From Taiwanofungus camphoratus (taxonomy: Eukaryota; Basidiomycota; Agaricomycetes; Polyporales; Taiwanofungaceae): a DNA stretch of 64,000 nt. A program made the position numbers and the translations under genes. Numbering within the stretch: the stretch's first letter is position 1; every line of letters starts with the position of its first letter. The DNA lies in NCBI GenBank assembly GCA_003999685.1, contig CP021230.1, positions 372,001 through 436,000 of the forward strand, in the 5' to 3' direction. A model generated the notes under the pieces. It saw nothing but the letters and a program-made list of their open reading frames with translations, had not been told where the DNA came from and searched no databases. Positions 1,188 through 52,140 of this stretch are shown one piece after another.

Positions 1188-4100
1188 TCATTCTGCCTTC
1201 GTCGCTTGATTTGAGCCATGGCCCTTCCTATGCTCCGCCACAAATTGCGCGAACCTCGATCTATGCTTCTCCTGTTGGACTGCAGGATCGTCCCGGTCGT
1301 GGCTAGAGTGCTTGTCGTGATTGTGCTTGCCTGGAGTCTTCGTCAGGAAGTCCACAATCAAAGACCAGAGGTTGTTTCCGTTCATTGCATTCTCTTCCGT
1401 CAGGAACGCCTGGTCTGCGATCCTGGCCAGCCGTCGCGCTTCTTCTGTGTCCCTCCGAGAAACGATGCTACTAGGTGGCGGGTGTTCATCGGTATCTAGC
1501 GCCCAAGCCCAAGGCCAGCTTCCCGTAGTAATCAGACCCTCCTTCACGCCTTTCGGTGTGTGTGCCTTCGCTTCAGATTGAGACGCCTTGTCATCATGGG
1601 CGAGGTGGGCTTGTAGCTGAGATATATTCCTCATCGTGTCGTGTTGCGCCAGGTTGATATTACGGAGGCGTTTCTTCTCGATAGATTTGTACGTCTTCGC
1701 AAACTTCCTGGTGAACTTTGCCTGTCCATCGTAATATCGCTGTACGATCAATTCGGAAATGGTGCCAATGAGCTCTTCGGGGTATAGGAGCGCAGACAGC
1801 TCGCTCTCCGGCTCCAAGGGCCGGATGACGCCTGACGTCGACACCCGTTCTCGAATCATGATGTCCTAAACCAAGATGGTCCATCAACAGCTGCAATGGC
1901 AACAGACACATTACTCGTCACAATACATACTAGACCACTGTCGTACACTGAAGGTTCACCAGCCTTGCGCACCACGTCGTCGTTGAGAGCTGGTGATTGC
2001 GGTGTATCCTTGAAGCGAGGGCCAGCAACGTCACTGCTCTCTGGTGTTTCTCGAGCCAGAGACGGTGGTGCCTGCGGCGCGCGCCCGGTACTACGCTGGA
2101 AGAAGGAACTCGCACGCGTGACGCTCGTGCTGACTGCACGTCGTAGAGTCTTTTTCTCCGCGTCATGGTCATCGGTCTTTCCCCCGGAGGTCGCAGGACG
2201 CGCTCCCGACGAACGGCCCTCGCTCTGCATCGAACCACGACGGTGAGCGACCACGGGCGAGGAGCGTTCTGCCTTGTCCTCGTCCGCGCGTGGTGTACCC
2301 GATAAGCTCGGGGTGCTCTCCGGCGAGAACGACGTCTGCATGTGGTTCGAAAGACTAGACGGGCCCGGGAGTATGCCCGTGACATATTTGCAGAAAGTCG
2401 CGATGCCCCTGTAGCAATACTTTGCCGGCTTCGTAAAGGAAAAAAGAACAGGAAGAGTATGTGCGGCGTCTGATGGAGCCACGATCAGCGGCCAGTTTCA
2501 GATGATGGTGCATGCGCCCGCTTACCGTCCCATACTTGTAAATGGACCTTGGTAGGTCCAAAGCGTTGTTCTATACCCTGAAGGGCAGGGTACATCTGTC
2601 GGGTCTCCTCCTTCACAATATGCTTCTGTGGATGAGCTGCCTTGTGAGCACTGCCACGACAAACCGGTCAGCTCGCAGTGAAAGTGACCAAACGTAGAGG
2701 CAACGTTACAAATAAATGATCTCGTCTCTAATCACTTCTTTATCGCTCACGATAATCAACAGAGGGGGCAGTCCGCCTAGGTAAGACAACACGGAGCTCA
2801 CAAGCGGGTGAGTCAGCAGATAGTTGGGGGTGTACATCTGCACTTGTTCCTCGATCTTCAGAAGCTTGCCAGTCGCAGTGCGGAGACTGATCGTTTGGTC
2901 TCGGACAGCAGAATCCGGGACGGGCAACGCCGCTGTCGAACCCAAGTGCAATGTCTGCCCAGAGGAAGCTACAAGGAACTCATGGTCGACCCCGCGAGAC
3001 GCAGATGCATCCTGCACTGCACTGGAGGCTGCTTCTGGGTCGGCCGGTTGCTTGTCCATACGCACGACCTCGCGCACGCGACTGCGGATGCTATTGTGGA
3101 CCTGGGCGGTCACCTCGTCCGGAGGCGGCGGCCACAGGGTGCTCGGCTTGTGGAACGACAGGCCATAAGGCGGGAGCACGTCCTGGGAGCGGCAGATCGT
3201 GAGATGCGCGGAAACGCCATGCGGAGGCACACTTACGGTGTTGGTGTTGGTGTGCACACTAGGAAACGAATGTGTCAGGTCGCACCAGGGTGATATGAGT
3301 ACGCCTCCGGCAGGCATTGGCAGCCCCGTATCGCGGATGAGTTGCAGCAAGGCTATGCACATGCCGCCCCCTGCGGAGTCCCCCGCGACAACGATATGTG
3401 CGGGATCGACCGGGCAGTGCGAGGCTCCTTCAGGAGGACGAATCAAGAACAGATCTAGAAGCATGTTGAAGAAACAAGGTTGATGCTATTAGGTATGCGG
3501 CCACGTACAGGCGGCGAGTAAATCTTGTATAGCGCATGGGAACGGGTATTGCGGTGCTAGACGGTAGTTGATAGCTGTATGCACGAAATTTATCAGTATG
3601 ATAGTATGCGTAGGTGGACCTCACTCACCAAAAACGCGGCCGTTGATCTTCCGCGCATAACGTTCGATGCTGTACCTGCACAGGCGTTAGCCACTGGCTT
3701 TGTTAGGTACTACTGGGTTGCAGTGCACCTTTCTTGATCGATGCTACCAAAGTAATAACCACCTTGACAGTAAAGTGAGTCCACGTGCACGATGATAGGA
3801 ACCATCAGTCCACACCTCCGTGAGCGAACAATATGCACCGCATCTTGTCCATTTCAGGTTCATAGACCGCAGGCGCTTCTTGGCTGCTTCCATCCTTGGG
3901 CATGTCCGCCGACCTGCTCGCCTTTCGTATATTGCTAGATTTCTCCTTCTGCTGCGCTTTGTGTCGTTTCTTTGCTTCCTCCCAGTCTTTCTTTGCTGTG
4001 ATCCATTCGGCATCGATGCTGCCATTGCATGCTGCAGGTGAATGCGACAGTAATGTGGGTGAATACATACCCTCCGACGCCCCGAACTTGCCACCATTTG

Positions 4101-4745
4101 GTGCCCCCGACGACCCGTTTTGTTACCTCTTCTCCGCCGAGCGCTTTGATCAGGTACGTGGCCGCATCATCACAACATGACATCGGAACGACCAGTCGTA
4201 CGACATGGGTCCAAGGGGGTGATGGTGTACGAGTATTGGAAAATTCCTGCAGCTCCTCCACGGTATGCCTGGAGATTGCAGTACAATAAGCACACATCAA
4301 CATCAAAAACATTCAGGGCAGGTTATTATTGTGCTATAGCTCTCCGCTGAATTTGTTATGCGAATACTCGAAGCGGTTCACAGGAGACCTTCAAGGATCA
4401 TGAATGACAGGGTTAATCTAGCTCTATGCGCTCGGAGTCCTACAGACTACTTCCTCATATCTTGGACCTGTGAAAGTACTATGGAGTATGGTGAACTCAC
4501 TTAGTGGCAGCTTCGAGGAATGTCTTGAGATTACTGAGATGCCATCCTGAAGGCGAGTCGCGCTGAATGCGGCTTACCTTGACTACATGGAATACTTCAT
4601 CGTACAATAGCTCATCTTGGCTCAATTGCGTTACTCCATCACCGCGCTCCTTCAGTATTCGTTCTGCATAATGCTTCACGAGAGTGTCCAACAGCAAAGG
4701 CCCGAGTTTGAATCCTGCCTGGCTGAGGAGGGAATTTATAGGCAT
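1188..4745 (-). CDS. HSL-like alpha/beta hydrolase (lipase/esterase), large fungal form
   Basis: Twelve exons: 4745-4578, 4523-4501, 4268-4071, 4018-3816, 3762-3729, 3675-3629, 3574-3509, 3454-3237, 3182-2710, 2650-2526, 2469-1931 and 1865-1188, giving 923 residues. The spliced frame holds the hormone-sensitive-lipase oxyanion motif HGGGYYFGS (about residue 195), INYRLAPQYPFP, the nucleophile elbow GDSAGGG (about 270), a candidate catalytic Asp in IVSDKEVIRDE (about 470) and a candidate His in DDAAHTLP (about 520). Such enzymes cleave acyl esters; the substrate is unknown. After the domain come about 170 Ser-rich, probably disordered residues and a charged C-terminal segment shared by large fungal members. 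Intron 3183-3236 is 54 nt and in frame, so it was called by interruption of the conserved block between HTNTNT and PPYGLSFHK. One intron is long (232 nt, 4269-4500). The start at 4745 is the first ATG of the conserved frame. Confidence 0.85.
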
Positions 4746-6255
4746 TGCAAGCTCACACAAATGATCGAGGTGAAGATGAAAGTGAAGTGTAGAGTACCAG
4801 GCCGTGCAGTTTCATGGTCGTCGCTTTCCCGTACCCTATACGCATGTGATAGATCCTTACGCCAAGTCGCGGCAGCTCTGAAACCACGTGACTCAATACC
4901 CTGTTTTGCCTGAGCAAGTTGACCTCCTTGTTCTCTGGTCATGGATGGATGGAATCGATTTGCGTGCTACGGGCGCATAAGCACCTATGGTGCACGTCTA
5001 CTGTACTAACTATGTGTCGTATGATACTGCTGCCACCCTGTTCTCTGATCAATCTTAACACAGAGTCCAAGAATGAAGTATGTCACGTCTTCGACATCCC
5101 AAGAACAGTCGATATTGTATGGTGTATTGATATTGGCTCCGAGATCACTAGTTCAATCCGCATTGCGTTTAGGGTGTTACTCTGCCCGAACTTCTCGCCT
5201 TGGTGCGGCTTGTCACATCGAGCAACTGGTTGGGAAGTGACGAAAACCTGTTGTTCAATTTCATAGATACTTGATAGATACTAAGAATATTGAATCGACG
5301 TGTTGGTCCAATACTTCGCTACTGCTTGCAGCGCGAGATGTTTGGGGTGTACAATGCTGTACGCCTTTTTGCATTTCAAATGTTATCGTTGTCGTTTTTG
5401 ACGGGCCTCTGCTTGCTATTGTACTTTTGGTGAGATAGAGCAGGCTGCGCTATACCGTGGATATGCGCCGTACCCTGAGTGTTGCAAGACCCTCCGATGT
5501 GACTGAGGCATGCTATGGCCCGACCTATCCCTTGGTGCTACAAGTACTTGGACTATTGCACCTTGCCATCGCAACGCTCTGCGTCCATGAAATTCAATTG
5601 TACCATCATCTTCAGGCGTCCGTTCTTGAAAACGAGTAGGTATTTGATATGAATTTTGTCGTGTTATTGTTCAGATTTCTTTTCCGCAATAGATCCTGGT
5701 ATTTTAATATCATGTCTTCACATTCTGCAGCGTTGTCATTCAACCATGCACTCGGATGGTCTGCCAGTTGTAAGATTTTCTGTCTTGTCTGGGCTTATAC
5801 CATTGCTTGTGGCAAATGCATGTTAGGCGGTGAGGATCATCCCTTGCCCTACACGATGTGGCTACTTGAAGCATGGCCCAATTGAAAATACATGTGTAAT
5901 CCTTCAAGCTTTAGGTTCAAGCACGTGCGCAGTCAGTCCTCGGGATGCGATTCGGTTGTAACGCTGCTCGAGGCAATATATACACATTCCCCTTTTGTAT
6001 CCCTACTTGCTATAATCCATAGATAAGTCAACAACGTGCGTGGGCCCTTGACTATCGTAGGTCCGGCTATATTTAATATTTATTAGACATGCCAAATGGA
6101 GCGACGTCCATCAGTATGCTCAGACTTTGGAGAAGTCCCATAAGAGCATGAACCGAGATGCTTGAAGTACACGTTCCCCGGTGCCCAGCTGCAGCAAACC
6201 GACCCCAAGCATTCGTCGTTATTTGCATTCCCATCGGCAAGGGTTGTTTCACGCA
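4746..6255. other. 1.5-kb gene-poor stretch
   Basis: Short frames on the plus strand (4919-5266, 5457-5639, 5649-5885) show no motif, no introns that extend them, and biased hydrophobic composition expected of AT-rich spacer. The part near 5973-6080 has TATA-like sequence and probably belongs to the promoter of the SUR7-like gene. Nothing else supported. Confidence 0.45.
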
Positions 6256-6960
6256 ATGGGCATTCTGAACCTCAAGACCCCGCCACCCCGACCACTCGCT
6301 CGCCACCTGGAAATCTCTATCGCGACCTGTGTGGTGATGTTCATTTCGTTCCTTCTTTATCTCCTTGTTGGTCTTTCGCTCCCTATCATCAAGTCCATCT
6401 ACCTCTTCTCTATCAAGCTCAAGGCTGTCGCTGGTCAACCACCCACTGCAGCCGCGACCGACTTGCGATTCGGTGTGTGGGGTGTTTGTGCGTACAGCGT
6501 CATACCCGGCTTCCAATACTGTTATGGCCCAACTCTGGGTTACACGATACCGCAAGACATTCTCTCGCTGACGGGTTACCCTCAGCTCGTCAATGCAGTA
6601 GTGAAAGCACTGACCGTCCTGCTCGTGCTCCATCCCGTATGCGCGGCCCTCGCCTTCGTATGCATGTTCACCTCGCTGTTCCTCGAGTCGCACTGCATGT
6701 CGATCACGTCACTCGTCATCTCCGTGATCACCATCATTCTGGGCTGTTTGGTGTTTGCTGCCGACCTCGCATTGGTGATCGTGGGCAGGACCAAGGTCGG
6801 GCCGCTGACGAACTTCACGTACTATGTCAACTGGGGCCCCGGCGTGTGGATGATCCTCACCGCTGTTATCCTACTGTGGGTGGGGATGGTGTTGCTGAGC
6901 GTGGTGGTCTGTCAGTGCTGTGGAATAAGGAATAAATATGATGATGAAAACTACTATTGA
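6256..6960 (+). CDS. SUR7/PalI (Rim9-like) four-helix plasma-membrane protein
   Basis: A 234-residue intronless frame. It has four hydrophobic helices at about residues 19-42, 112-138, 149-177 and 196-219, a large first extracellular loop with the family motif G-x-W-G-x-C (GVWGVC at 73-78) and a second loop Cys at 89. It ends in a short charged tail (KYDDENYY). Known SUR7/PalI proteins sit in the plasma membrane, either in eisosome-type domains or, as Rim9/PalI, in the ambient-pH sensing complex that feeds Rim101/PacC. The short tail fits a plain Rim9-like member, but sequence alone does not separate the two roles. The ATG at 6256 was chosen because it directly precedes the first helix; the frame stays open 25 codons further upstream but that part is unlike the family. 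Confidence 0.8.
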   Translation: MGILNLKTPPPRPLARHLEISIATCVVMFISFLLYLLVGLSLPIIKSIYLFSIKLKAVAGQPPTAAATDLRFGVWGVCAYSVIPGFQYCYGPTLGYTIPQDILSLTGYPQLVNAVVKALTVLLVLHPVCAALAFVCMFTSLFLESHCMSITSLVISVITIILGCLVFAADLALVIVGRTKVGPLTNFTYYVNWGPGVWMILTAVILLWVGMVLLSVVVCQCCGIRNKYDDENYY

Positions 6961-7953
6961 TCAGGAAGACTTCGGCGTAAGTATCATTCTCTAATCATCC
7001 TCCGGCGGGAGTTCTTGACTTCTCTCAGGCAGCACGTTAAGCTTGAACATGAGCCGGATTAGAGCTCCCCAGTGTCCCCGCCTATCGCGATCGAGGCTAA
7101 CCGTCGCAGATCTATCCGATGATCTGCGCAGCAGTGTCTGGCGGTTGGCCTTCTATATCACTCACGACCTCTCACGACATTCACGGACATTGATGACCAC
7201 TCATGCCTTGCAACGACACTCACGATGACCCATGCCCCATTTTGCATGTTCACTTGATGGGCTTCTGTGCTTGCTTATTCACATCTTGGCTAGCGATGGC
7301 ACTGAACGTATCGTTATTCGGTTTACCTATCTACATACCTTACTTTATTGTGTTTTCCTGGTCATCACAGTTAGTTCTTCTGCTGGCGTATTCATTTGTT
7401 TTCACTATGCAAGTGCTGTTGTCTACATGACTCTCAACTCGTCGTGTTACGCGATGTTGTCATATTCAATAATAATGTTGCATCATTATTGGGCTCTGGA
7501 AAGTGTGACCACTTGTCAGTTCTTTCTTGAGTCCACAAAGACAATCAGAACGGCAAACATAAAGAATAAATGTCCTCTATGATGAGGATGGGCCATAGGC
7601 TACTCGATGGATTTCTGCCCCGAACGTCATATTATGCGACAGTAAACCTGTGACAACTCTCGACAAGTACAAATTGAAGCGGGAACTCAGTGATCGCTTG
7701 ATAAGAAACCTCGCGCACGGTTTATAGGCACTGTTAAACCAAATCTGCACAAAGTAACGTTCGTCGGAGCTTTTGGACGGTTAGATGTCAAAAGATCCAG
7801 GTAAAGTCAGTAGTAATGAATGATGATACAGATACACGTCGGGGACCACGACTCCCCTACGAGGCCTAATGAGATACCCACTTGGAAAGAATTAGAACAA
7901 ATCGTCTTAGTGGTACAATCGAAAGGAGATGGATGGACAACATATAACGTACG
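6961..7953. other. Spacer between two convergent genes, with a possible 3' UTR intron
   Basis: Just after the SUR7-like stop, 6977-7028 has a GTAAGT donor, a CTAAT-like branch site and a CTCTCAG acceptor spaced 52 nt, as in a local intron but outside the reading frame, so possibly a 3' UTR intron. The rest has only short AT-rich frames with no support. Confidence 0.35.
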
Positions 7954-8996
7954 TCAAAAATGACTAACTTCTACAACCTCCCTGCTTTCATTAATTTGGA
8001 CTTTGAGGCTATGCCCTCTCCACGGGGGTAGCTTCTTCTGACCGTCACTTCCATAGCCCCCTTCTGTGACACCATCTCCAAAGAAAACGTATCCCGGAAT
8101 ATAGCGGTCAACGAAGCTTAAAAGATTGGCATTATTAATTTGATGGGTGTCGACCGGACGGAATGCAACAAACGCACGCTTCGACCTGATCATCCGTCAT
8201 GCCCTTCCCACCATTCGACGACTTCATATTGTGCTCCTGCTGTAATCGCCACTTGTAGATGTGTGTATATGGATGCGATTCTTCCGGTGTTATCTGTTCA
8301 AGTATTGGTAGAAATCATCTTGCTCGCATTCACATTGGGTATACAAAGTACCTGAATGAAGGAATCGAGCATCTCCCACCAGGATAGATACCCCTGAAGT
8401 CTCTCGTTGACGTCAACGATGTCCTCCTCCCTGAAACCCCGTTTCTGAAAGAAATCCTGACCCAAGCCTTGGACAGGTTGCTGCCATCGCCGATCGATCT
8501 CCTCCAGTAATGTAGGATAGAAGCCCACGCACCAGCCCTCCAGAATCACGACATCAACAGGGGAGCGTACCAAAGCCCCTTCCTCGACACGATCACCCTC
8601 TCCGTCAAACAAGCTCTTGTCGAATCGCGGGGTTCTCACTTGGGCTACTCCGTGCACTTCAATGTCATTGATTTGCTTTAGCCTTTTGAGGATGTCGGTT
8701 CCTAGAAGTACATCATGCGTGCCCGGTTGCCCCCGCCCTCTGAGAAGGAGGTTCTGTGGGTGTGCAGTCGCCAGCGCAACAAGTCCATCATGCGGAAGGT
8801 ATAAATCGTCAATCGACAGCACTGCGACCGAGAGATTGTCCGAGGGAGATGTGAGAGCCTCGCGTACGCGGGAGGTAAGGAACGTCTTTCCGCTCCCCTG
8901 AGGGCCTTGTACTCCAACGAGGAGGGGTGGTACCATATGCCCCGCAAAGAAACGCAACCGGTAAGTTTGAAGTTGTGTCAATATATGAGAGCGCAT
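7954..8996 (-). CDS. TDA10: TDA10 / D-glycerate 3-kinase-like P-loop kinase
   Basis: Exons 8996-8352, 8293-8178 and 8116-7954 give 307 residues. The P-loop reads GPQGSGKT, followed by a Walker B-like LSIDDLYLP and later VDVVILEGWCVGF. Other family blocks are WRLQQEHNMK and FVDRYIPGYVFFGDGV near the C-terminus. Yeast TDA10 is an ATP-binding kinase-fold protein related to plant glycerate kinase; the substrate in fungi is not settled. Both introns (8294-8351 and 8117-8177) restore the conserved reading exactly. The start is uncertain: the frame is open upstream of 8996 without an ATG, so a short first exon may lie between about 9000 and 9110. Length agrees with the yeast protein (about 290). Confidence 0.85.
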
Positions 8997-38619: not shown

Positions 38620-39235
38620 CAGACCTCGTCAAAAGTTTTTGATGTTTACGCACTACGTCCTTGTTCCAGCCACACGCGATACCCCCGCTATGCATGATAC
38701 CAGCAACATCCTCGAATAGGTGAGTACATACTCGGTACATTCAAGCACGATTGTACAACATACAGAAGTCAAGCCCTGATATGCGTTGAAATCATGCACC
38801 TTTATGAGCAAACAAAGTTTCATCTGATCTTCCGCTCTCGCAAATTAGTTCTACGTTAACCAATGCTGACCATAAACCTTGAATCAACAGGTCCGTGCAT
38901 ATTGACGTTCTTTTCCCCCTAATATGTAATGCTACTCAGGCTTGCCTGCGACTTACGCAATCAGGAAGAATTGATGACCATAAGGTCTCGTACTGTATCT
39001 ACACTTTTACTTATCTACGCTGTACCATTACACCTGTTCGCGACCACAACAATCCGAGAAGAGGGTAACGAATGAAGGACAATATTAGTATATGAATGCA
39101 ATGCAACAGTTGGCCACTATAGCTACTCACCGACATTGCGTACGTGAAATAATAGCAAGAACGCAGTGGAACATGAGAAAACCGGCCAGAAACGAGGAAG
39201 AAAGCAACGAAGCACATCAGATGAAAGCAACGCAA
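38620..39235. other. Spacer before the eIF4G-copy cluster
   Basis: No gene recognised. Marks the right end of the ordinary housekeeping block. Confidence 0.35.
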
Positions 39236-39451
39236 TACTAGTAGTTTATCACTATCCATTGACTTACTCGCAAGTCGAGTACGGCGCTCCTCATCCTCAC
39301 CAAGACGAGCACCCTTCATCATCGTGTCCATGAGATTGAACACCTTAGGCATATCAGTGGCCTGACGTCGCAGCTTTCGACGCCAGCTTCGAGAACAAGT
39401 TCTGCGACCCAGCACGGGTAATCGTGGACTCGCGGCTCTTGCTCTTGCTAG
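39236..39451 (-). pseudogene. Fragment of an eIF4G copy (MA3 end), continuation of the copy at 40.5-43 kb
   Basis: Reads KSKSRESTITRAGSQNLFSKL, then jumps to VFNLMDTMMKGARL and LASKSMDSDKLL. The text between them, which in the related copy spans about 170 codons (44.8-45.3 kb), is missing. It is the downstream part of the copy whose upstream part ends at about 40522; the two are separated by the nested insertion 39452-40521. The stop codons that follow the deletion join show it is not translated as an MA3 domain. Confidence 0.75.
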
Positions 39452-40521
39452 GGCTGGTCAGCTAACCGAGGGGACGGTCGATGGTTCGGATTCGATTGGC
39501 GCCCTACCGGCGCCTAAGTCACGTTTTTGATGAACTCGGTCACTGTCACTACGACAGGTGCCTGCACAACCGGAGCGGCGGCTCAGCAGCCGCCGACGAC
39601 CAAGGGAGTGAACACGCCCTTCTGTACGGTATTAAACCTAGCAGGTACATGGTGAATGCAATATATATATATACTACTATTTGATAGAAAGCTGGACAGT
39701 ACCCATAGTAAGGTGAACATGGATATAAAAACAAGGCCGCTGGTGTTCCAAAAAAGGAAAGTGCAGCGTCCGCATAATATTCGCAAGGTCGTTGTTGACG
39801 GTTCAAATATGGATGCAGACCAAATAACCGATATTTTTAGAGCAAATACATCAACATATATATCAGGAGCAGTGGTATTTCCATTTCCTGGTGAACGACG
39901 TTGAGCGCGACATCGACACGGGCACTGCACTTTCCTTTTTGGAACACCAGCGGCCTTGTTTTAATATCCATGTTCACCTTACACTGTCCAGCTTTCTATC
40001 AAATAGTAGTATATATATATATATTGCATTCACCATGTACCTGCTAGGTTTAATACCGTACAGAAGGGCGTGTTCACTCCCTTGGTCGTCGGCGGCTGCT
40101 GAGCCGCCGCTCCGGTTGTGCAGGCACCTGTCGTAGTGACAGTGACCGAGTTCATCAAAAACGTGACTTAGGCGCCGGTAGGGCGCCAATCGGCCGTATA
40201 CTCCAGCTAACCTACGGAGTTGCCTAATATGTACATTCCTGTTCTGGTTAAGCGCTTCACAGTGGCGTTCAAGTGGTGGCTAAGGTCAACTGATTGTTTT
40301 CTGACAATTCTATGCTAATTCTACTGGATAACGAATCTACTGCTAGCTAAAAATTAGGTTATGACAGTATTTCTGCTTATATTCAGCGATTTTGGTCTCA
40401 AGACACATGTTGATTTTTCAAAAGACTGCAGCATTGTGACTGAGCGCATGGCGTATACCTGATTTAGTAGTATCACATGACAGATTTGATGTTCTTAATT
40501 TGGCAACTCGGCCTTAGAACC
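39452..40521. mobile_element. 1.07-kb insertion flanked by 8-bp repeats, carrying the fold-back element
   Basis: CTTGCTAG occurs at 39444-39451 and again at 40522-40529. Removing 39452-40529 restores the eIF4G reading L-T-S-K-S-K-S-R-E, which matches the neighbouring copy apart from two residues, so the 8-bp repeat looks like a target duplication. Apart from the inner fold-back element the inserted DNA is only about 330 bp and has no coding frame; its ends show at most a weak inverted similarity (GGCTGG / GGTTCT). An 8-bp duplication would suit a hAT-type element. Confidence 0.6.
39459..40212. mobile_element. Fold-back Mutator-like (MULE) non-autonomous element with 9-bp target duplication
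   Basis: Element 39468-40203 (736 bp) is flanked by the exact 9-bp repeat CAGCTAACC (39459-39467 and 40204-40212), the target size of Mutator-like transposons. Its arms, 39468-39766 and 39925-40203, are reverse complements over about 280 bp with few differences, apart from a 14-bp extra piece near the left end. Ends read GAGGGGACGG and, in reverse complement, GAGTATACGG. Inside the arms are a GGCGCC-rich palindrome, a long CGGCGGCTCAGCAGCCGCCG palindrome and an (AT)n run. Only about 160 bp lies between the arms and there is no transposase, so it depends on another copy. Arm identity is high, so insertion is recent or the arms are kept alike by conversion. Confidence 0.85.
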
Positions 40522-40696
40522 CTTGCTAGTGAGCACACTGGTAGGCCCGAAGGTCATGGACGTGGTCTTGCTGATCTTCCCGAAGTTGGACAAGTCACCA
40601 GCTTTAGGTAGAGGCCTGGGAGCGGAGCCACCAGCGACTGCCAAACCGTGAGGACCGATTTGAGAGTGGTCACCTCGGTCTCCACCACGTTTAGGA

Positions 40697-42955
40697 CTAC
40701 CCCGAGACATGTTCATCGTACGCTGATAGGCGTCCTTCTCGCGGACTGCCTTCCTTTTTGCCAGCCTGCAATATTCATCGAATGATTAGTGATAGAACTC
40801 AAATAAATTAATAAGACTCACAGCTTCGTGAACTGCAGCAATCGTCGTGGGTGCAGTTATCGCATTACGCGGCACCCAGTTGCGTTCGCGCAGCTCAATG
40901 ACATCCTGTGGACCAGATGTCAGATTGGTTTCATCGAAGGAAACCATCGCATGAGACCAACCTGTAACATGACATGCACACAAGAATTGACATTCGGGTT
41001 CTTTGCCAGCCCCCTCATACGTGAGAAGTATACGTCCATGTGCGCACGCGCCTTCTGAGTGTCAAGGAGTCTACCGACGGTGGTCAACAGCTTGCACAAG
41101 CTCTCGATTTCTTCCTCTTCCGGATTCTCCACATTCCCGAGTAGCTTTTTGACACACTCGTGCATAATGCGTTCCGTCAGCATCTGCAACTTGAACAGTT
41201 CACCGATGAACTTGATAAGACCGAGTCCCTGTCGCTTTGCGTTTTGCGCAGCATAGTACTCGTCCAAGAAAACACTCTCTTCGGCGGTGTTGTTCTTTTC
41301 AGCGGCGGCCTTCACAGCCTGGTCCTCGCTAGCCTTTGTCGCTGCTGCTGCTGCCGCCGTAACCTCCTTTGCTACCCACCCTCGCTTGAAGTCCTTTTGG
41401 CAACGGTTGAGGAGGTACTTGCGGAATAGCTGACCGCCAGCGATCGGCTTGCCCTCCGCGCTCTTGATGCCATCGTCCTGCACTTTCGAGCTGATCTGCT
41501 CCATCATCTTATGACATAGACGAGCGTACATTTCGGACCACGTCGCCTCATCGGTAGCCTTCTCGAACACGAGTCGGATGACCTGGATGAGTGTTCGCCC
41601 ATCCCTCTCCTTCTCAGACTTGTTCGCCCATGCAATGATCTGATCAGAGATCGAATCGAATCGCTCCATCGTGAGCTTGTTCAGAAGTGCCCGGACTTTC
41701 CGGTCCACAACTTCAGGAACATCTGTATCCACTTGTTGCGGCTTCTTCCCGAGACTGTTTGGCTGCCAGCGGTTCGCGGATACCTCCAAAGGTGCGACAG
41801 GTTCCAGCAATATGCCATGTTGCGACGCAGACATCGATGCGAACGACGACCCTGGGCCAGACATGCCTGTATTCGCTCTGTTCGCATCACCGCGCTTTTC
41901 GCCACGCTTACTTCGAGTGCGGTTACTTCCCATAGGAACACCACCTGGACCACCCTGACTTGATGAACGCACCATGGGTGCCGGCCGACCAAACTGCATA
42001 CTAGTGCCAGACATGGACGTCAAGCGTGATGCCATCTGGAATCGCTCCTCACTCGACATTTTGGTATTGGCCGTAGCAAATTGGCCCATCGTGAATGGGT
42101 TCGAACCAGGCTTGTTAAAGCCAGAGATACCGAGGCCTATGGCTTGGCGAGCTACTGTGGAGGGAGGAGGGGGCATCGACGTTGCAGATGAGCGGCGGCC
42201 AGATCCACCACGCCTCACTGGGTAAGTTTGATCGGAAGGCTCAAGGCCGAAGGCGTTCAGAGGTGGTAAGGAGTCGGGCTTCTCTTTGCAGATAGCCATG
42301 AACTGGAGGAGGAAATCTCGGTCGTATCTGATCATCGTATATCGAGTCAACGATTAGTATCCCGTTGGATGAATAGAAGAAAAATACCGTACCTAAATTT
42401 GCCCTGCTTTGCGTTGACATTGAGTTCAGCATTGGGACTCATGATGCCCTCAGGGTATGAAATGCTCCACAGGTCTTTGACAAAATGCGCGGTAGCCAGA
42501 GATGAAGGCAGAGGTCGGGAGACGAATTGGTTCTCGATGCATGGAGCATCGAGGGATTCGGGTTCATGGTGCCCAGGACCTGCCAGTGCCTCCACGACAT
42601 CAATACGCGAAGGCACCTTGTCTTGTGGTTGCTCTTGGACGCTTTCATTGCCCGCTCCTACAAGAGAAGTGGTGTCAGACGAGCCATACAGTAACATGTA
42701 CACATCCGTGATCTTTTCATACAACTCAAAGGTAGCTATTGTTCGTAGTGAGGGTTAATCCGTCGCGACAAGATCGAAAAGTTTTGACTGATATACTAAG
42801 GACTTACCGCCCTTCAGTGTGACATCCGAGACAGTATGGGCACTGGGGTGATCATTGTTGAAAAAATCAGACCGTCCTAGTAAACTCGGTCGTCTTCGTG
42901 TTAATGGTGTCGGACCGTTTGGTGAACCTGATTTTCGTGACTGAGTCAAGGTCAT
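40697..42955 (-). CDS. Truncated eIF4G-like protein with MIF4G domain
   Basis: Exons 42955-42808, 42735-42393, 42327-40962, 40905-40822 and 40765-40697 give 669 residues. The middle reads like fungal eIF4G: ENQFVSRPLPSSLATAHFVK, SPNAELNVNAKQGKFRYDRD, EKPDSLPPLNAFGLEPSDQ, then the MIF4G HEAT domain at about 365-600 (VDRKVRALLNKLTMERFDSI to MLQDVIELRERNWVP), which binds eIF4A. It lacks the long N-terminal region of eIF4G. In the last exon the frame differs from the related copy at 43.7-46.8 kb, so it stops after 23 codons; the other frame stays open to 40495 and still encodes the Gly/Arg-rich segment seen in the related copy. It may be an expressed short eIF4G (dominant or regulatory) or an early pseudogene; the MIF4G part itself has no fault. 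Confidence 0.7.
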
Positions 42956-43672: not shown

Positions 43673-46600
43673 TTAGAAACCGAGATGAAGCTCTACCTGC
43701 AATGAAAACATTTCTTTAGCCAAAAGATACTAGTGCAGAGCGGTGCAGAGTCGCCTACATCTGCTATTCGCCTTTCAACTTCTGCATTGACTGCACTGTC
43801 TATACCTTTCAATTTCAATATCATGCTCTTATGGCATGATATACAGCCAACAATGTCCCCGTGAATCCTCCATATTCTCGAAGCCAGTATGTCATCTCCA
43901 TCCAGCTTCATTCTTCCGCATGGTGTACTGATGAGTGCATTGTGAACAAATGCACGATATTGTTGCAAATCGAGATCGAAGCGTCTGATGAGGGAATCAT
44001 GCATGAGAAAGTGACAGTCTTCACAGTACTTGTAGCTGTGGTCAAATTTGTCCGCATGGAGCTGCCAATAGCCCTCATCTGATAAAACAGACAATGCTGC
44101 ATTCTTGCATTCATCTCGATATTGTATCAAGTCAAGTAGACTCGTCGCAGGGAGATCCTTCAGTGCATTGGGAAAAGAGTGACTAGTAGTGCGGACCGGT
44201 AAGTGGTGATATAATGTCACCTTGGCAGCAGCGTGAGTCTGTTCCTTCAGTAAAAACCGACATGTAATCGCGTAGACACTGAATGGGTCACATTGTAAAA
44301 TCTTAGGATTCATAAGCGCTTTGGCATAGAACACTTGGGCCACCTCGATTTGATACTTAACCGCAGCAACCAGTACTGCTTCTATGTCTTCCGTCTTATC
44401 CAAGACAGGATCGACAGTAGGGTAGCAAATGCGAAGCAGCTGATCAAGAGTTTGTGCATCCTCGGATAGCGTGAATACGGCAAGCCCATCCTGATCATCC
44501 ATAGGAGTGTTAACAAACCCAGGAGTTGTGAAGAGTGAATCGGAGGTAAAGGAGATTATGACCCTGTGGGTGCGGAAATCTACTTCATCAGATGAGCGTA
44601 GAATCATATCTGCATCGTTTCGATTGAATGGGGAGGCAGCTTGTATAGTGCCTTTCGAGTAAAACGGAGGTGTGCCTAGTTCTTGTGGAGGACGCAATGA
44701 AGACAGGGGAGGTCTAACCATCCACTTCCTCGCAAGTCGTACACGGCGCTCCTCATCAAGACGAGCACCCTTCATCATCGTGGCCATGAGATTGAACGCC
44801 TTAGGCGCATCGATGGCGACATCGTCAAGAGTCTCCGCTGCTGGCATGAATCCCGCTTCGAATGAATCCGGTGAGCAAAGATTCTTCGACGCCGCTCGAC
44901 TGAAAAAGTCCGCCACCAACTGCGCATCCGCCTCCTTCGACTCGAGTGCCGACATGACCAGTTTGTCTACGAGACGCCATTTGTGCTCCGATGGCAGCTT
45001 GCTAAAGTAAATCTCAGCCTCATCTAGATCTCGGATGCTGAAAAACTCCTTCAAGTCTTCGTCAATCCTCGTCTTGGCCTCCTCTTCGGACATCGACGGC
45101 ACGTGAGAATCCTCGTCGTCGGAATTCGCTTCTGAAGCAGCAGGTGTAGAGTCTGCCTTGCCTTCCTCCGTCTGTAAGGGTTTCGAGCGAGGAAGGAGGT
45201 TGAATGTCCTGGGCTGAGGGATAGCCTCAGGTAGCCCAGCTGCGCCAAGATCGACGCTCGGCCTGCGACTCGGCGGTCGGCTGGACTTGGACGTCGCAGC
45301 TTCCGATGCCAACTCTGGGTTCTCCATCAGCTTGGAGAACATGTTCTGCGACCCAGCACGGGTGATCGTGGACTCGCGGCTCTTGCTCTTGTCCTTGCTG
45401 GTGAACACACTGGTAGGCCCGAAGATCATGGACGTGGTCTTGCTGATCTTCCCAAAGTTGGACAAGTCACCAGCTTTAGGCGGAGGCCTGGGAGCAGAGC
45501 CAGCGACTGCCCAACCGTTAGGACCGACCTGAGAATGATCGCCTCGCTCTCCGCCACGCTTGAACCCACCTCGAGACATGCTCAACGTACGCTGATGGGC
45601 GGGCTTCTCGTGGGCGGGCTTCTCTTTTGCAGCCTGCAATACTCATCGAATAGTTAGTGACAGAGTCCGAGTAAAATAAGTAAGACTCACAGCCTCGTGG
45701 ACTGCAGCAATCGTCGTGGATGTAGCTACCGCATCATACGGTACCCAGTTGCGCTCGCGCAGCTCAATGACATCCTGTGGACCAGATGTCAGATTGGTTT
45801 CATCGAAGGAAACCATCGCATGAGACCAACCTGTAACATGACATGCACACAAGAATTGACATTCGGGTTCTTTGCCAGCCCCCTCATACGTGAGAAGTAT
45901 ACGTCCATGTGCGCACGCGCCTTCTGAGTGTCAAGGAGTCTACCGACGGTGGTCAACAGCTTGCACAAGCTCTCGATTTCTTCCTCTTCCGGATTCTCCA
46001 CATTCCCGAGTAGCTTTTTGACACACTCGTGCATAATGCGTTCCGTCAGCATCTGCAACTTGAACAGTTCACCGATGAACTTGATAAGACCGAGTCCCTG
46101 TCGCTTTGCGTTTTGCGCAGCATAGTACTCGTCCAAGAAAACACTCTCTTCGGCGGTGTTGTTCTTTTCAGCGGCGGCCTTCACAGCCTGGCCCTCGCTA
46201 GCCTTTGTCGCTGCTGCTGCTGCTGCCGTAGCCTCCTTTGCTACCCACCCTCGCTCGAAGTCCTTTTGGCAACGGTTGAGGAGGTATTTGCGGAATAGCT
46301 GACCGCCAGCGATCGGCTTGCCCTCCGCGCTCTTGATCCCATCATCCTGCACTTTCGAGCTGATCTGCTCCATCATCTTACGACATAGACGGGCGTACAT
46401 CTCGGACCACGTCGCCTCATCGGTAGCCTTCTCGAACACGAGTCGGATGACCTGGATGAGTGTTCGCCTATCCTTCTCCTTCTCAGACTTGTTCGCCCAC
46501 GCAATGATCTGATCAGAGATCGAATCGAATCGCTCCATCGTGAGCGTGTTGAGAAGTGCCCGGACTTTCCGGTCCACAACTTCAGGAGCATCTGTGTCCA

Positions 46601-46844
46601 CTTGTTGCGGCTTCTTCCCAAGACTGTTTAGCTGCCAGCGGTTCGCGGATACCTCCAAAAGTGCAACGGGCTCTAGAGGTGCGCCCTGCTGCGAAGTTGA
46701 TATCGGTGCGGACGACGACCCTTCGTCAGAAATGCCTGCATTTTCTCTGTTCGCATCACTGCATGTTTTGCCACGCTGACTTCGAATACGACTACTTTCC
46801 ATGGGAGTACCGCCTGGACTATCCTGGCTTGAAGAATACGCCAT
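43673..46844 (-). CDS. eIF4G (MIF4G-MA3) joined in frame to a BTB/POZ protein
   Basis: Exons 46844-45831, 45774-45691, 45633-43759 and 43696-43673 give 998 residues from the ATG at 46844. Order: Ser-rich start; MIF4G domain about 89-320, nearly identical in DNA to the copy at 40.9-41.7 kb; Gly/Arg- and Lys-rich linker; MA3 domain about 547-668 (MSEEEAKTRIDEDLKEFFSI to MMKGARLDEERRVRLARKW); then a sharp change to an Agaricomycete BTB/POZ domain about 702-820 (PFNRNDADMILRSSDEVDFR, DGLAVFTLSEDAQTLDQLL, RICYPTVDPVL) with its usual C-terminal part ending VELHLGF. The MA3-to-BTB join lies inside one 1.9-kb exon with no stop. MIF4G and MA3 contact eIF4A; BTB domains dimerise or bind Cul3. The ATG choice is uncertain because the upstream eIF4G part is in another frame. 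Confidence 0.72.
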
Positions 46845-48452
46845 GGGCACTGGCCGAGAACTGCATACAGGTGCTAGACATGGACGTCGAGCATGATGCC
46901 ACCGGGAATCGCTCCTCCCTCGACAATTTTGCACTGGTAGCCTCCCGCTTCGTCTTCTCTGCCTCCTTCAGCCGCTTCTTCTCAAGCCTTTTGTTCTTCG
47001 CCTCCTCAGTCTCCATCCGCACGATTGTCTTCCGTGCAGGCGAGCTAGGCACCGTGGGCGACGGCACAGCCGTACCCTGCTTTTTCAGTGCCTCCAGGTT
47101 GACCTCTGTCCCGGTCACCGTGGTGATCTTGACGGGCTTCCGTGGAATGAAAGTACTCGCGTTCGTATTCAATCGCCCCGCCCCGCCGGGCGTGCTCACG
47201 GATGGTGTGGGAGGCCGCGACGAGACGCTACTGAGACTGGCCGTATGGGAACGTGGTGATGGAGTCGCGTGTGGCGGGTGGCCCGTACTTGGGATGGCAG
47301 GAGTCAGAGTTGGAGTTCCAGGAGTGTGAAGGGGAGGAGGGGGATTTCGTGGTGAGATTGGCATTCCAGTGTGTGGCGGCCCAGGTGGTCCTTGGGAAGG
47401 GTGGTGTTGGTGTTGCGGCGGAACGGCGTGCTGCGGGACGTGCCACGCCGGTGCATACGACATGTAGTGCTCCGGTGGCATACCAGGATACTGTGGGTAC
47501 TGTTGAAAATTGTCGTAAGCGAATGCGTAATGAGATGCATCAAAAAACACGAACGTAATACCCGGGCCATCCTGGCACCGGTGGAGGTGCATGTGCCATG
47601 CCTGCGGGCTGTCCACCGTGCGGGGGGCCCATTCGCGGGCTAGACATCCCCGCAGGCATCACTGCCGGCGCTGACCCTGGCCCTCCAGGCATACCATTCG
47701 GTCGACCGCTGACGTTCGCCCCATTCACTTGGCCGTTGAGCACCTGACGTGAATAAACCGGCGAGTGTGGGACACCGCCGGGTCCTGGCTGTCCACCATT
47801 TTTCTGCGCGCGGAATCCCCCACCAGGAACGAAGGGTGTGTAAGAATGCGCGCCTAGCTGCGAAGGCTGTGACTGATGTGGCGCAACTTGCGAAGGTGCA
47901 GCCTGTGGTGGCGGGTGTAGTAGTGATGGACGATTCGAGGGAGAGGTGATGTCAGACGCAGACTGCGAGGATGATGTAGAAGGGGCAGGTCCGCTGCTTC
48001 CTTGGAACAACTTTTTGGTGTCTATATTAGGCATCGACGGCGTCGAGGGTGCTGTCGACTGTTGTGACGATGACGATAGTGAAGAGGGTGCAGCTGAGCT
48101 TGTAGAAAGTTTGCCATTGGCCGGCGTAGAAGTAGGTGTCGCTGGCACAGAGCCAAACGACTTCACACCTTCCGACTTGATCGTCGGTACAGCAGCAGGA
48201 GAGGACGAGATAGGTGCAGCAACGTCGTTTATCGACCCGAAGGTCACAGAAGAACCTAACAGTCCATCCAAACCGCATCAACAAGGCGATCCTCACCTCA
48301 CGCTCTACTTACCCACACGCACCTGATTTTAGGGCACCCGTTGGTGTTCGAGCACCAGCTGCCACGTCTTTGAAAGAGACACCTTGGCCTAGCGCACTCG
48401 GTGACCGAGTAGAGTAAGTTGGTGGAAGCTGGGTTAAAGGGGATTGGCGCAT
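46819..48452 (-). CDS. N-terminal region of an eIF4G copy, ending at a frame break
   Basis: Exons 48452-48323, 48255-47555 and 47499-46819 give about 503 residues of the low-complexity eIF4G N-terminus: QGVSFKDVAAGAR, SEGVKSFGSVPATPTS, HSYTPFVPGGGF, YPQYPGMPPEHYMSY, MPISPRNPPPPL, LNTNASTFIPRKPVKITTV and METEEAKNKRLEKKRLKEAEK. This part holds poly(A)-binding and RNA-binding segments in known eIF4G. At about 46935 the text jumps straight to the stretch before MIF4G, losing roughly 270 codons that include the usual eIF4E-binding zone. Two bases missing near 46860, compared with the sister copy, then shift the frame, and it stops at 46819. The next frame (from 46844) carries MIF4G. A further upstream exon may start at an ATG at 48595; the phase did not fit, so I left it out. 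Confidence 0.6.
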
Positions 48453-49169
48453 CCTAATTTCGAATACAAATACACGATGTCCAATACACTCCGTACTTGA
48501 CGAGAATGATGCGCTCAGTTCTGTGGTTCACTGGACTTACTTGTAACTGGCCGGCCGTAGGAGATCAGCGATGAAGGGGACGCTGTAGGCGCCATTATAT
48601 GCTTCCTGCGCGGCGTTAGGCACTTGCCGCAAAGTTCGATCCGGTTCTGTTATCGAAGTGACCTAGAATGACGTGAGAAATATTTAGTCTCCCTGTAGAC
48701 AATTCTATCCGACACTTACATGACTATTAACACTTACTTCGTCGTGCTAGCAGCTAGAATCTAGATTCCAAAGTCGATGGCCTTGACGCCCGGTGTAATA
48801 CTCGGCCAAACATCGAGTGCGCTTTGTTGTCGATTGTTTGGCTCCTCAATTGGTAGGATAGACGGCAGACGAATTACAATAGACAAGCACTGAGTTCGTC
48901 ATATAATCTGCAATTATTATAGCCACCTGCTGGTGGTACAGGGGTAATTTCCGTTAGCTGGAGATGGTGGATAACCAAACTGCAGATCATGAGTGCTGGG
49001 CATGAATGCTGATCCTATCAATGCCAGAGATTGCTCTTGCTGGGTTATCTTCGCAGTGATAACCTCTGATGCAGCAAAGGGATTCAAGCAGGGCTGGATA
49101 ATCCCTGAGGCACCGAGGTCTTCCGTTTGATGTGCACTTCAAAAGGCAGTAGTCATGTGCGGTGGAGTA
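48453..49169. other. Upstream region of the eIF4G N-terminal copy
   Basis: Contains a possible first coding exon starting at 48595 (MAPTASPSSLISYGRPVT) followed by a GTAAGT donor, as expected for eIF4G, but no in-phase acceptor was found. Nothing else recognised. Confidence 0.4.
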
Positions 49170-49830
49170 GATCCATAACAAATGGAATGTGTTTGGTCGG
49201 AAGGCCTAATTACCAAAGACGCCAAGGACAATTCGGGCATTGTCTTGCAGCTAGCGGCAAACTGGAGAAGAAATTCCCTCTCGTACAGGACGATTAGGCT
49301 GACAGGCGGGGCGAGGACACCTAATACCTGAGCTTTCCCTATTTGCATTTGCATCGAGCCCTGCCTTGGGTATGAACCACTGTCAAGGTCTGTGATGAAA
49401 CGAGCTATAGACGAAGATAATTGAGATATAGCTTGACCACTTGTAGAGGGTGTTTTGAAAGGGTCGGGTTTCGACCGAGAAACATCAGCCATATGGCTCT
49501 GAGTGATTGCTTCGTATTGATGCCCTTGTTTCGTCATTTTTTGCATTTGCCTGCTCTTCTTCATCCTGCCGCATTATGCTATCCTCGAACCGAGCCTCCT
49601 CTTGAAGTCGCGCCTTCTCTACCTCCTGCGAGCTGTATATTTCGGCCCCTCTGTCTCCATCCGCATGTTATCCTTCGCAGGCGATTGGCACTATTGGCGA
49701 CAACCCCACAACGCCACGCTTCCAATCTTTCAGACTCACCTCTACTCCATTCGCCATCTTGATTTTGACTGTGCTGACCTGTCGCGGTACAAAACGTTCG
49801 CATTCCTTTTTGAGTCATGCAACCGCATTA
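49170..49830 (-). pseudogene. Eroded third eIF4G copy
   Basis: Scattered eIF4G-like pieces in different frames, in the right order on the minus strand: VKIKMANGVEVSLKDWKRGV (compare the KITTVTGTEVNLEALKK region of the copy at 47.1 kb), then SSIARFITDLDSGSYP, and YEREFLLQFAASCKTMPELS followed by IRPSDQTHS (compare YDRDFLLQFMAICKEKPDSL and LEPSDQT). Frames change several times and no MIF4G core follows. This copy is more diverged from the other two than they are from each other, so it is older. Confidence 0.7.
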
Positions 49831-50510: not shown

Positions 50511-51851
50511 TCAGTCAACGTAGTCTTGTGTTTGCTCCTTCGGCCTGAGTCCCCAAGTCTCCCACTGTGCCTCGAAGCTTTTCGAGTCGCTGGGAAGCTT
50601 GACGCCCCATGTGATGGCGTAATGCTCAAGCACGAGCTCTAGCTCTTCGACTTCGTCAAGCATCTCGAGGTGCGCAATCCTGCGCATTATTGAGAAGGGT
50701 GTGAGCAGTGCCTGGTGATGTTATGCTTACCTCTCCTGCTCAGATGGACTGATGTGCGCTCTGCGGATCTCGCGAAGCGTCAATGCCTTCGCTGTTGTGA
50801 ACCCATGTTGCAGGAAGCGACCCGGTAGGGAAGCAAGCATGGGGAACGGATCCACACCAGGAAGAGAGACATTGCGTGCCTTGCCAACCATGACTCAGAA
50901 ACAGTAATCCGGCGTTCCAACCGACGTCCTCACCTTGAGGTTGTCTCGCATAACCTTGCCAAATGCGTCGCCTAGACCAAACATCTCGTAGACAATCCCA
51001 CCAAGAATGCCGCAAGAGTTTTCGCCGTCGGGCAGAGGTTTCGAGAAGTAATCGACGAACCACTCAATGAGCGCGGACGATGCTGCAAGTGGCATATAGA
51101 CGAGTACGCATTCGAAAAGAAGAAGAGTCGGGTGATTTGGAGACAGAAGCGGATGCGAAGAGTCTGAAGCTGCAGATGATGGAGCCGCAAGCAGGGAAGT
51201 TAGTGCCTCTGAGGGTGGAAGTCGGAGATCAGTAGACAGCAGGTGGTAGACTGGTGCATGAAGGCTTGTTCCACCGTTTGCTTTGTGCAATAATCAGACT
51301 ACAGCACTCCACTCGGACACAACATGAGACGAACTAAGCTTGACGTCCTCCGGCCTTCCCAAGACCGCACTCAACTCCTTGCTCTTCCGGATCGCCATGG
51401 CCTTCTTCGTTGTGACTTCCGGAAAGTCGAATTCGAAGTATGCCTTAAGAGACTCCTTTCTCTTTCCCGTCTGCCTGGAGGACGATTTATGACCAAATGA
51501 GCGCGGAAATTGTCCAGAAACACGCACCGCAATCCGCCAATAGCGCGTATCGCTTCCGGCACCCAGACTAACGATCTGACATTGTGTACCCTCTTGCTCA
51601 GCGAGCTCCAGCCACTGATCTACAAGCTCGTCTATGCCCTCTGCACGAACATATGTTCCGATATTGATCAATGGCGGGCGGGGAGGCTGGAGGTGGGCGC
51701 GAGGAACGAAGTGTCGGATGAAATGGTCGTCGAGATAGTGTTTCTGGACTGCCGAAAGACGGGCGAGGGCAGCATCTGAATCAGTTTGACGGACGGCAGC
51801 ATCGGAGTCGTGTTGATTGGGAGCATGGCGGTGTTGAAGAGGAGGCAGCAT
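50511..51851 (-). CDS. PPM1: Leucine carboxyl methyltransferase (PPM1/LCMT1)
   Basis: Exons 51851-51528, 51470-51335, 51280-50934, 50879-50731 and 50679-50511 give 374 residues. Class I methyltransferase features: PPLINIGTYVRAEGIDELVD, the SAM loop IVSLGAGSDTRYWRIA, FEFDFPEVTTKKAMAIRKSK, LLLFECVLVYMPLAASSALI and DPFPMLASLPGRFLQHGF, then the C-terminal SPSEQERIAHLEMLDEVEEL. The enzyme methylates the C-terminal Leu carboxyl of the PP2A catalytic subunit and so guides B-subunit assembly. A Ser/Pro-rich insert (about residues 185-205) between conserved blocks is not in the yeast protein. All five exons join in phase. Its start is 289 bp from the divergent TIM22 gene. Confidence 0.92.
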
Positions 51852-52140
51852 GTTGCTCAGCTATGAGCGATAAAACAGAAACAAGCTTGAAGGTTTTGCT
51901 CGAAAACGGAAATATTGATTACGTAAAGTTGATGAAATAAGGCGGGATCCAAAATTGACGCGCAGTCGTTCTGAGTTGAAGACATAGGCCAAACATTAGC
52001 TTCTGATGTTAACTCAGACCGGCTGGCTCCGAGTTTCCAAAATCCTGACATTCTGCAAGCTGGCGAGTTACACCGCTTGTGTGCGGGTTTTGCGCAGCGT
52101 ACTCTCTGAGCGACCGTATTCCAACTTGGCCGCCTCCAAA

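Follow-up and report, generated by a model that had tools for sequence, protein, structure and literature searches.

Does an open reading frame (ORF) that passes without interruption from the 3' half of an eIF4G gene into a BTB/POZ domain encode a new kind of translation protein, or is it debris left by a rearrangement? The question is raised by the minus strand of a 64,000-nucleotide stretch of the Taiwanofungus camphoratus genome (33.2 Mb in 15 contigs), referred to below as the window (C11:372001-436000). An initial annotation proposed that the locus encodes a MIF4G-MA3-BTB protein linking contacts of translation initiation with dimerisation or ubiquitin recruitment. The reading that we prefer, with modest confidence, takes the ORF for a chimera left as a by-product when a cluster of eIF4G duplicates was rearranged, either a pseudogene or a nascent gene.

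The single stop-free exon leading from the eIF4G linker through MA3 into BTB, as first described, is indeed present. A minus-strand ORF of 649 codons (45642-43693) holds both RLARKW and SPFNRNDADMI, and Pfam recognizes in it an MA3 domain (residues 191-290, 38.6 bits, cut-off 23.2) followed by a BTB domain (residues 344-437, 23.6 bits, cut-off 20.5; 25.1 bits in a second scan). The exon upstream scores 152.4 bits for MIF4G (cut-off 30.8). In neither of the two ORFs searched did Pfam report a W2 family at E up to 1. Our spliced model (Table 1) joins four exons, each of a length divisible by three, across GT-AG introns into 999 codons ending in VELHLGF and a stop, which predicts a protein of 998 amino acids. 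The first two introns of the model correspond to introns 4 and 5 of intact eIF4G; for the last exon, a pattern search of 19 BTB paralog loci returned no ending resembling VELHLGF. The start is a guess, the ATG at 46844 being the first past an in-frame stop at 46970-46968.

Table 1. Features of the eIF4G-BTB locus and neighbouring eIF4G copies, in window positions
Feature	Position	Strand	Basis
eIF4G copy C	39140-42953	minus	42635 to 42953 is an extension by eye
Modelled last exon, VELHLGF and stop	43673-43696	minus	Splice model
Putative last intron (GTAGGC...CTAA...GCAG)	43697-43758	minus	Sequence signals alone
Long exon: eIF4G linker, MA3, junction, BTB	43759-45633	minus	ORF, Pfam, splice model
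BTB/POZ domain (PF00651)	44332-44613	minus	Pfam
Breakpoint, end of eIF4G homology, ATG at 44721-44719	44713-44721	minus	Alignment to copy A
MA3 domain	44773-45072	minus	Pfam
Intron equivalent to eIF4G intron 5	45634-45690	minus	Comparison with copy A
Exon equivalent to eIF4G exon 5 (84 nt)	45691-45774	minus	Comparison with copy A
Intron equivalent to eIF4G intron 4	45775-45830	minus	Alignment, splice model
Modelled first coding exon, linker and MIF4G (Pfam match 46571-45831)	45831-46844	minus	ORF, Pfam, splice model
Coding loss and 2-nt deletion in copy B	46857-46939	minus	Alignment to copy A
5' part of eIF4G copy B (copy A residues ~53 to 509)	46940-48423	minus	Alignment to copy A
eIF4G relic D	48764-49814	minus	49492-48968 by tblastn, remainder by eye

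The origin of the eIF4G half becomes apparent from its surroundings; the initial annotation had covered neither the intact gene and the sister copies nor the frameshift and the lost 5' portion described below. A profile search of the genome for MIF4G returned six places, five of them above cut-off, and three of the six are an intact eIF4G gene (copy A) and two further copies, B and C. Copy A, the best of these places, lies to the right of the window in locus L007 (positions given for A, for example 5096-6027, are positions in that locus); about 44 kb separate it from MIF4G in copy B. With exon borders placed by hand from GT-AG sites and frame continuity, it reads as six exons encoding 1512 amino acids. 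Exon 4 opens with YDRDFLLQF, which we take to be the eIF4E-binding motif; PF12152 gives a partial match of 20.8 bits, under its cut-off of 27, in exon 4 of both A and C. Mapping A onto the minus strand of the window reveals relic D, copy B, which forms the eIF4G part of the chimera, and copy C. MIF4G scores in the genome search were 172.6 bits for A, 154.9 for C and 153.6 for B, and the SRxxFMLQ motif, which human eIF4G keeps, is altered in B and C.

Copies C and D are both broken. The 5' end of copy C is shortened; its eIF4E-binding motif and MIF4G are present, a frameshift lies at 40762, at the start of exon 6, and the equivalent of A 7638-8147 is gone, taking most of MA3 with it. In its place stand about 1.1 kb without eIF4G similarity, which include inverted repeats of 181 nt. 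The two arms of this repeat (39493-40192) are 100% complementary and separated by 338 nt, and the whole looks like a small mobile element. Relic D has about 35% protein identity to eIF4G and an internal stop; it carries a motif resembling the eIF4E-binding motif, YEREFLLQF.

Other repeated or related DNA occurs nearby. A distant eIF4G-like paralog with about 33% identity lies on the same contig (C11:314.7-316.3 kb; L031 3650-5252), its MIF4G and MA3 matches falling below the Pfam cut-offs. Within the window, minus-strand ORFs at 50514-51860 seem to resemble a leucine carboxyl methyltransferase. Two flanking loci (L008 803-4667 and L009 1205-5335) have stretches of 1.0 and 1.3 kb in common at 86-87% identity; these probably represent a further duplicated family, or a mobile element, in the neighbourhood of the eIF4G cluster.

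Copy B itself has suffered several disabling changes relative to its intact parent, namely a lost start region, a frameshift and a truncated end. It begins at about residue 53 of A, whose start region is missing. Its 5' part is 94% identical to A and stays open to 46819, out of frame with MIF4G. At 46939, 867 coding bases (A 5096-6027) are gone with the frame kept, a loss that takes in intron 3 and the eIF4E-binding motif. Upstream of MIF4G the frame is then shifted by a deletion of 2 nt at 46858. At the BTB breakpoint the last nine eIF4G codons are missing. The smaller indels, four in the 5' part and two in MIF4G-MA3, are all multiples of three, and a further 2-nt gap at 48440 lies in a poorly aligned region.

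Were the frameshift spliced out by a young intron, B could be one long gene whose protein, N-terminal eIF4G followed by MIF4G, MA3 and BTB, would lack the eIF4E site. A 55-nt GT-AG candidate of normal length (46868-46814) would bypass the frameshift, and the 5' part has a ratio of non-synonymous to synonymous changes (N/S) of 0.39 of neutral (24N:26S, plus one change that on its own would create a stop in A's codon); here and below the neutral expectation is built from the observed substitution types, with sites taken as independent, some of which conversion may have reset. That candidate is, however, one of 86 GT-AG combinations enumerated, none of them convincing. Among the 22 filtered combinations listed, three are of normal length, at 55-64 nt, and in none of them was there a branch-site match; neither A's first ~50 codons nor its promoter can be recognised in B. 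We regard such a gene as highly improbable.

At the junction, no eIF4G homology was detected past about 44714, where the alignment score falls below the mean of shuffled sequence (P 0.87). When the 83-base linker is shuffled, it stays open in 44% of cases; with a factor of one third for the frame, an in-frame stop-free join is expected by chance about 15% of the time, and the joining of the frames is thus not beyond chance. No second copy of the BTB-plus-linker DNA (43674-44713) was found in this genome.

The ATG at the breakpoint raises the alternative that two separate units adjoin here: an eIF4G copy, dead or truncated, and a BTB gene translated independently from this ATG, with its promoter inside the copy. 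It opens 321 codons up to the putative last intron and stands, in the same frame, 30 residues before PF; in eight BTB paralogs examined by eye the likely ATG lies some 8-19 residues ahead of PF in PFxxxDAD. Against this, the ATG pairs in the alignment with a methionine codon of eIF4G itself, and its position -3 is not a purine. Moreover, two BTB modules occur in one ORF in L013 and L023, and also, by common open frames, in L019 and L021, so that the BTB of the window may be the second module of a two-module gene that lost its first. A separate BTB gene appears quite unlikely to us.

The BTB part on its own gives an ambiguous picture. A genome search returned 33 BTB places, the window included. 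Outside the window the best of them shows 46% identity across residues 2-139, and one paralog aligns across residues 2-292 at 32% identity. When 19 paralog modules from BTB loci were compared with it by column and by tree, the BTB of the window kept 56 of 85 conserved columns and ranked 15th of the 20 sequences (30-71 of 83-88 in the paralog modules), by which it seems neither clearly decayed nor clearly kept. It is three residues short and has lost most of the SPFFxDMFxLP stretch, of which SPFFxDMF is also lost in a few paralog modules, and its terminal branch (0.99) is the longest of the 20 by a narrow margin. GC3 is 0.441, below the range of 0.497-0.629 for 21 paralog segments; these span less of the protein and do not each represent a different gene. 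GC, at 0.453, is lower than the 0.48 of two flanking stretches. This composition hints at relaxed constraint, though it may be old. The frame remains stop-free through 294 codons. A PDB sequence search with the BTB part returned no match at E up to 1, and in a single-sequence structure prediction it lies mostly under pLDDT 50; MA3 is predicted in the same run as helices, with block pLDDT of 57-84.

A working chimeric gene would make the 998-residue protein, whose MIF4G-MA3 would bind eIF4A without eIF4E and whose BTB domain would dimerise it or recruit a Cul3 ligase to the initiation complex or to eIF4A. The initial annotation held that Ka/Ks near 1 in both parts would speak against a fusion protein. 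The dN/dS of MIF4G-MA3 in B is 0.22, not near 1, yet the broken copy C gives 0.24-0.28 overall, nearly the same value, and we therefore dropped dN/dS alone as proof of selection. N/S in MIF4G-MA3 of B is 0.35 of neutral (40N:51S), under all 3000 shuffles, and 0.34 (28N:36S) in those of its blocks that have diverged from A. The linker before MIF4G differs from the MIF4G-MA3 stretch (P 0.005), at 0.90 of neutral (42N:20S). For the modelled N-terminus (46844-46628), approximately the first 72 residues, the value is 0.94 (32N:16S), as for neutrally evolving sequence. In copy C, N/S is 0.38 of neutral in MIF4G (13N:18S) and 0.61 in exon 6 past the frameshift (14N:10S, P 0.13); being less constrained than B in exon 6, C is a partial control only. 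Changes private to B in A 6341-7572 number 17N:15S (P 0.04 against neutral) and those private to C 18N:11S (P 0.25). Supposing equal change along a strongly constrained A lineage and a neutral B, the observations have P 0.006-0.03 for the whole MIF4G-MA3 stretch and P 0.014-0.048 for the diverged blocks, and B has no stops where 2.3 are expected (P 0.08).

Taken as they stand, these figures show that copy B was under constraint for part of its history. Exon 6 looks better preserved in B than in C, which favours a longer period of usefulness for B. Together with the unbroken frame, the eIF4G-like splice sites and the predicted helices of MA3, this is what a working chimera has in its favour. 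Past constraint alone, however, does not establish present function, since MIF4G is constrained to a similar degree in copy C, where the 3' half is destroyed and no MA3 can be made. Neither a start nor a promoter was identified for the chimera, the ATG at 46844 has no purine at -3, and the neutral first ~72 residues, the low GC3 of the BTB part and its largely missing SPFFxDMF stretch likewise weigh against a working gene, which we consider unlikely.

The distribution of identity along copy B offers a different explanation for its well-kept domains. Compared in 60-base steps, B matches A at 92-100% across A 3701-5020 and across MIF4G (6341-7120), and at 98-100% in MA3 (7781-8200); identity falls to 77-80% in 6101-6340, 68-88% in 7121-7420 and 85-97% in 7421-7780. 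Across the 139 codons of the block around MA3 (L007 7781-8200) there are two synonymous differences and no non-synonymous ones. Of the synonymous sites, 2 of 90 differ in this block, compared with some 35 of 142 for the diverged ones (A 7121-7780 and 8200-8257; Fisher P 1.6e-6); for MIF4G the count is 13 of 170 (P 6e-5). These P values are optimistic because the block borders were picked after the profile was seen. The three copies are also related in a patchwork: C equals A in 6101-6340, and B equals C in 7100-7185, including intron 4, which follows the pattern of the exon, with B and C alike throughout and 20 of 56 aligned bases different from A; intron 5 is mixed. Because selection on a protein does not freeze synonymous sites, exchange of DNA with A is the simplest cause of the near-identical domains. 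We infer that the patches are gene conversion tracts, and the intact look of MIF4G and MA3 in B would be largely due to DNA-level exchange with the intact eIF4G.

The preferred reading, a by-product of rearrangement, draws together copies, breaks, a breakpoint and a patchy identity that are plain to see. On this account B is an old extra eIF4G copy from which the start, the region of the eIF4E-binding motif and the nine final codons were lost, and whose 3' end became fused to a BTB gene that by chance continued in frame. Gene conversion with the intact eIF4G some 44 kb away and with the sister copy C would have overwritten the MIF4G and MA3 of B. Such overwriting could keep both domains free of stops and similar to those of the functional gene even if the joined protein were under no selection. 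Support comes from the intact A nearby, the broken C and D, the frameshift and loss in B, the synonymous patches, the neutral N-terminus, the MIF4G scores of B and C below that of A, and the low GC3 of the BTB part. Counted against it are the constraint on MIF4G-MA3, the upkeep of exon 6, the indels in multiples of three and an open BTB domain over the Pfam cut-off. On balance, probably no selected chimeric protein is made. The domain content and in-frame join of the initial annotation stand, but its new protein of translation and ubiquitin does not sit well with a truncated, frameshifted copy among damaged copies; the chance by-product that it offered as its own alternative fits better, given a B whose domains appear overwritten by exchange.

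MIF4G and MA3 are common to the chimera and canonical eIF4G (copy A, human eIF4G1 and eIF4GII, yeast p150), the positions of introns 4 and 5 are those of copy A, and 2vso, 1hu3 and 8huj are matched by sequence in the PDB; unlike canonical eIF4G, the chimera lacks the start region and the eIF4E-binding motif, is frameshifted upstream of MIF4G and has its last nine codons replaced by a BTB gene. DAP5/NAT1/eIF4G2 is an eIF4G relative without an eIF4E site and with a C-terminal W2 domain. If translated from 46844, the chimera would likewise be MIF4G-MA3 without that site, but it has no W2 by Pfam, and it is no orthologue but a recent duplicate, now damaged, of the eIF4G nearby. Its BTB domain scores over the Pfam cut-off, as in the BTB/POZ family of this genome, but is joined to eIF4G and divergent (46% best identity).

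Human IBTK, a BTB adaptor of Cul3, is reported to ubiquitinate eIF4A1 without degradation and to promote cap-dependent initiation (PMC11090508). The likeness to the chimera is one of concept alone, a BTB protein that contacts eIF4A; since IBTK acts on eIF4A1 in human cells, the functional idea is not absurd, and this counts for a working chimera (PMC11090508). One could go further and imagine a young gene, an eIF4E-independent MIF4G-MA3-BTB protein of 998 residues that docks on eIF4A and controls initiation through dimerisation or Cul3 while conversion refreshes its eIF4A-binding half, a scenario that strikes us as distinctly improbable. The statement that no eIF4G-BTB protein has been described agrees with the open-licence literature searched, in which no paper combined eIF4G, BTB domain, fusion and fungi. 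No such fusion appeared in titles and abstract openings on eIF4G, BTB and Cul3 among the matches listed, and MIF4G, MA3 and BTB co-occur in one listed cricket transcriptome paper.

If expressed, the chimera would connect the eIF4F machinery with a BTB module, a combination unusual in nature, and a transcript starting near 46844 would give a DAP5-like MIF4G-MA3 product without eIF4E binding and with a BTB tail. Even as a by-product, the locus provides a clear example in which an essential gene has decaying copies of itself close by and exchange of DNA can mimic selection on a damaged copy, and it advises caution in the automatic detection of new fusions and in the reading of dN/dS among duplicates.
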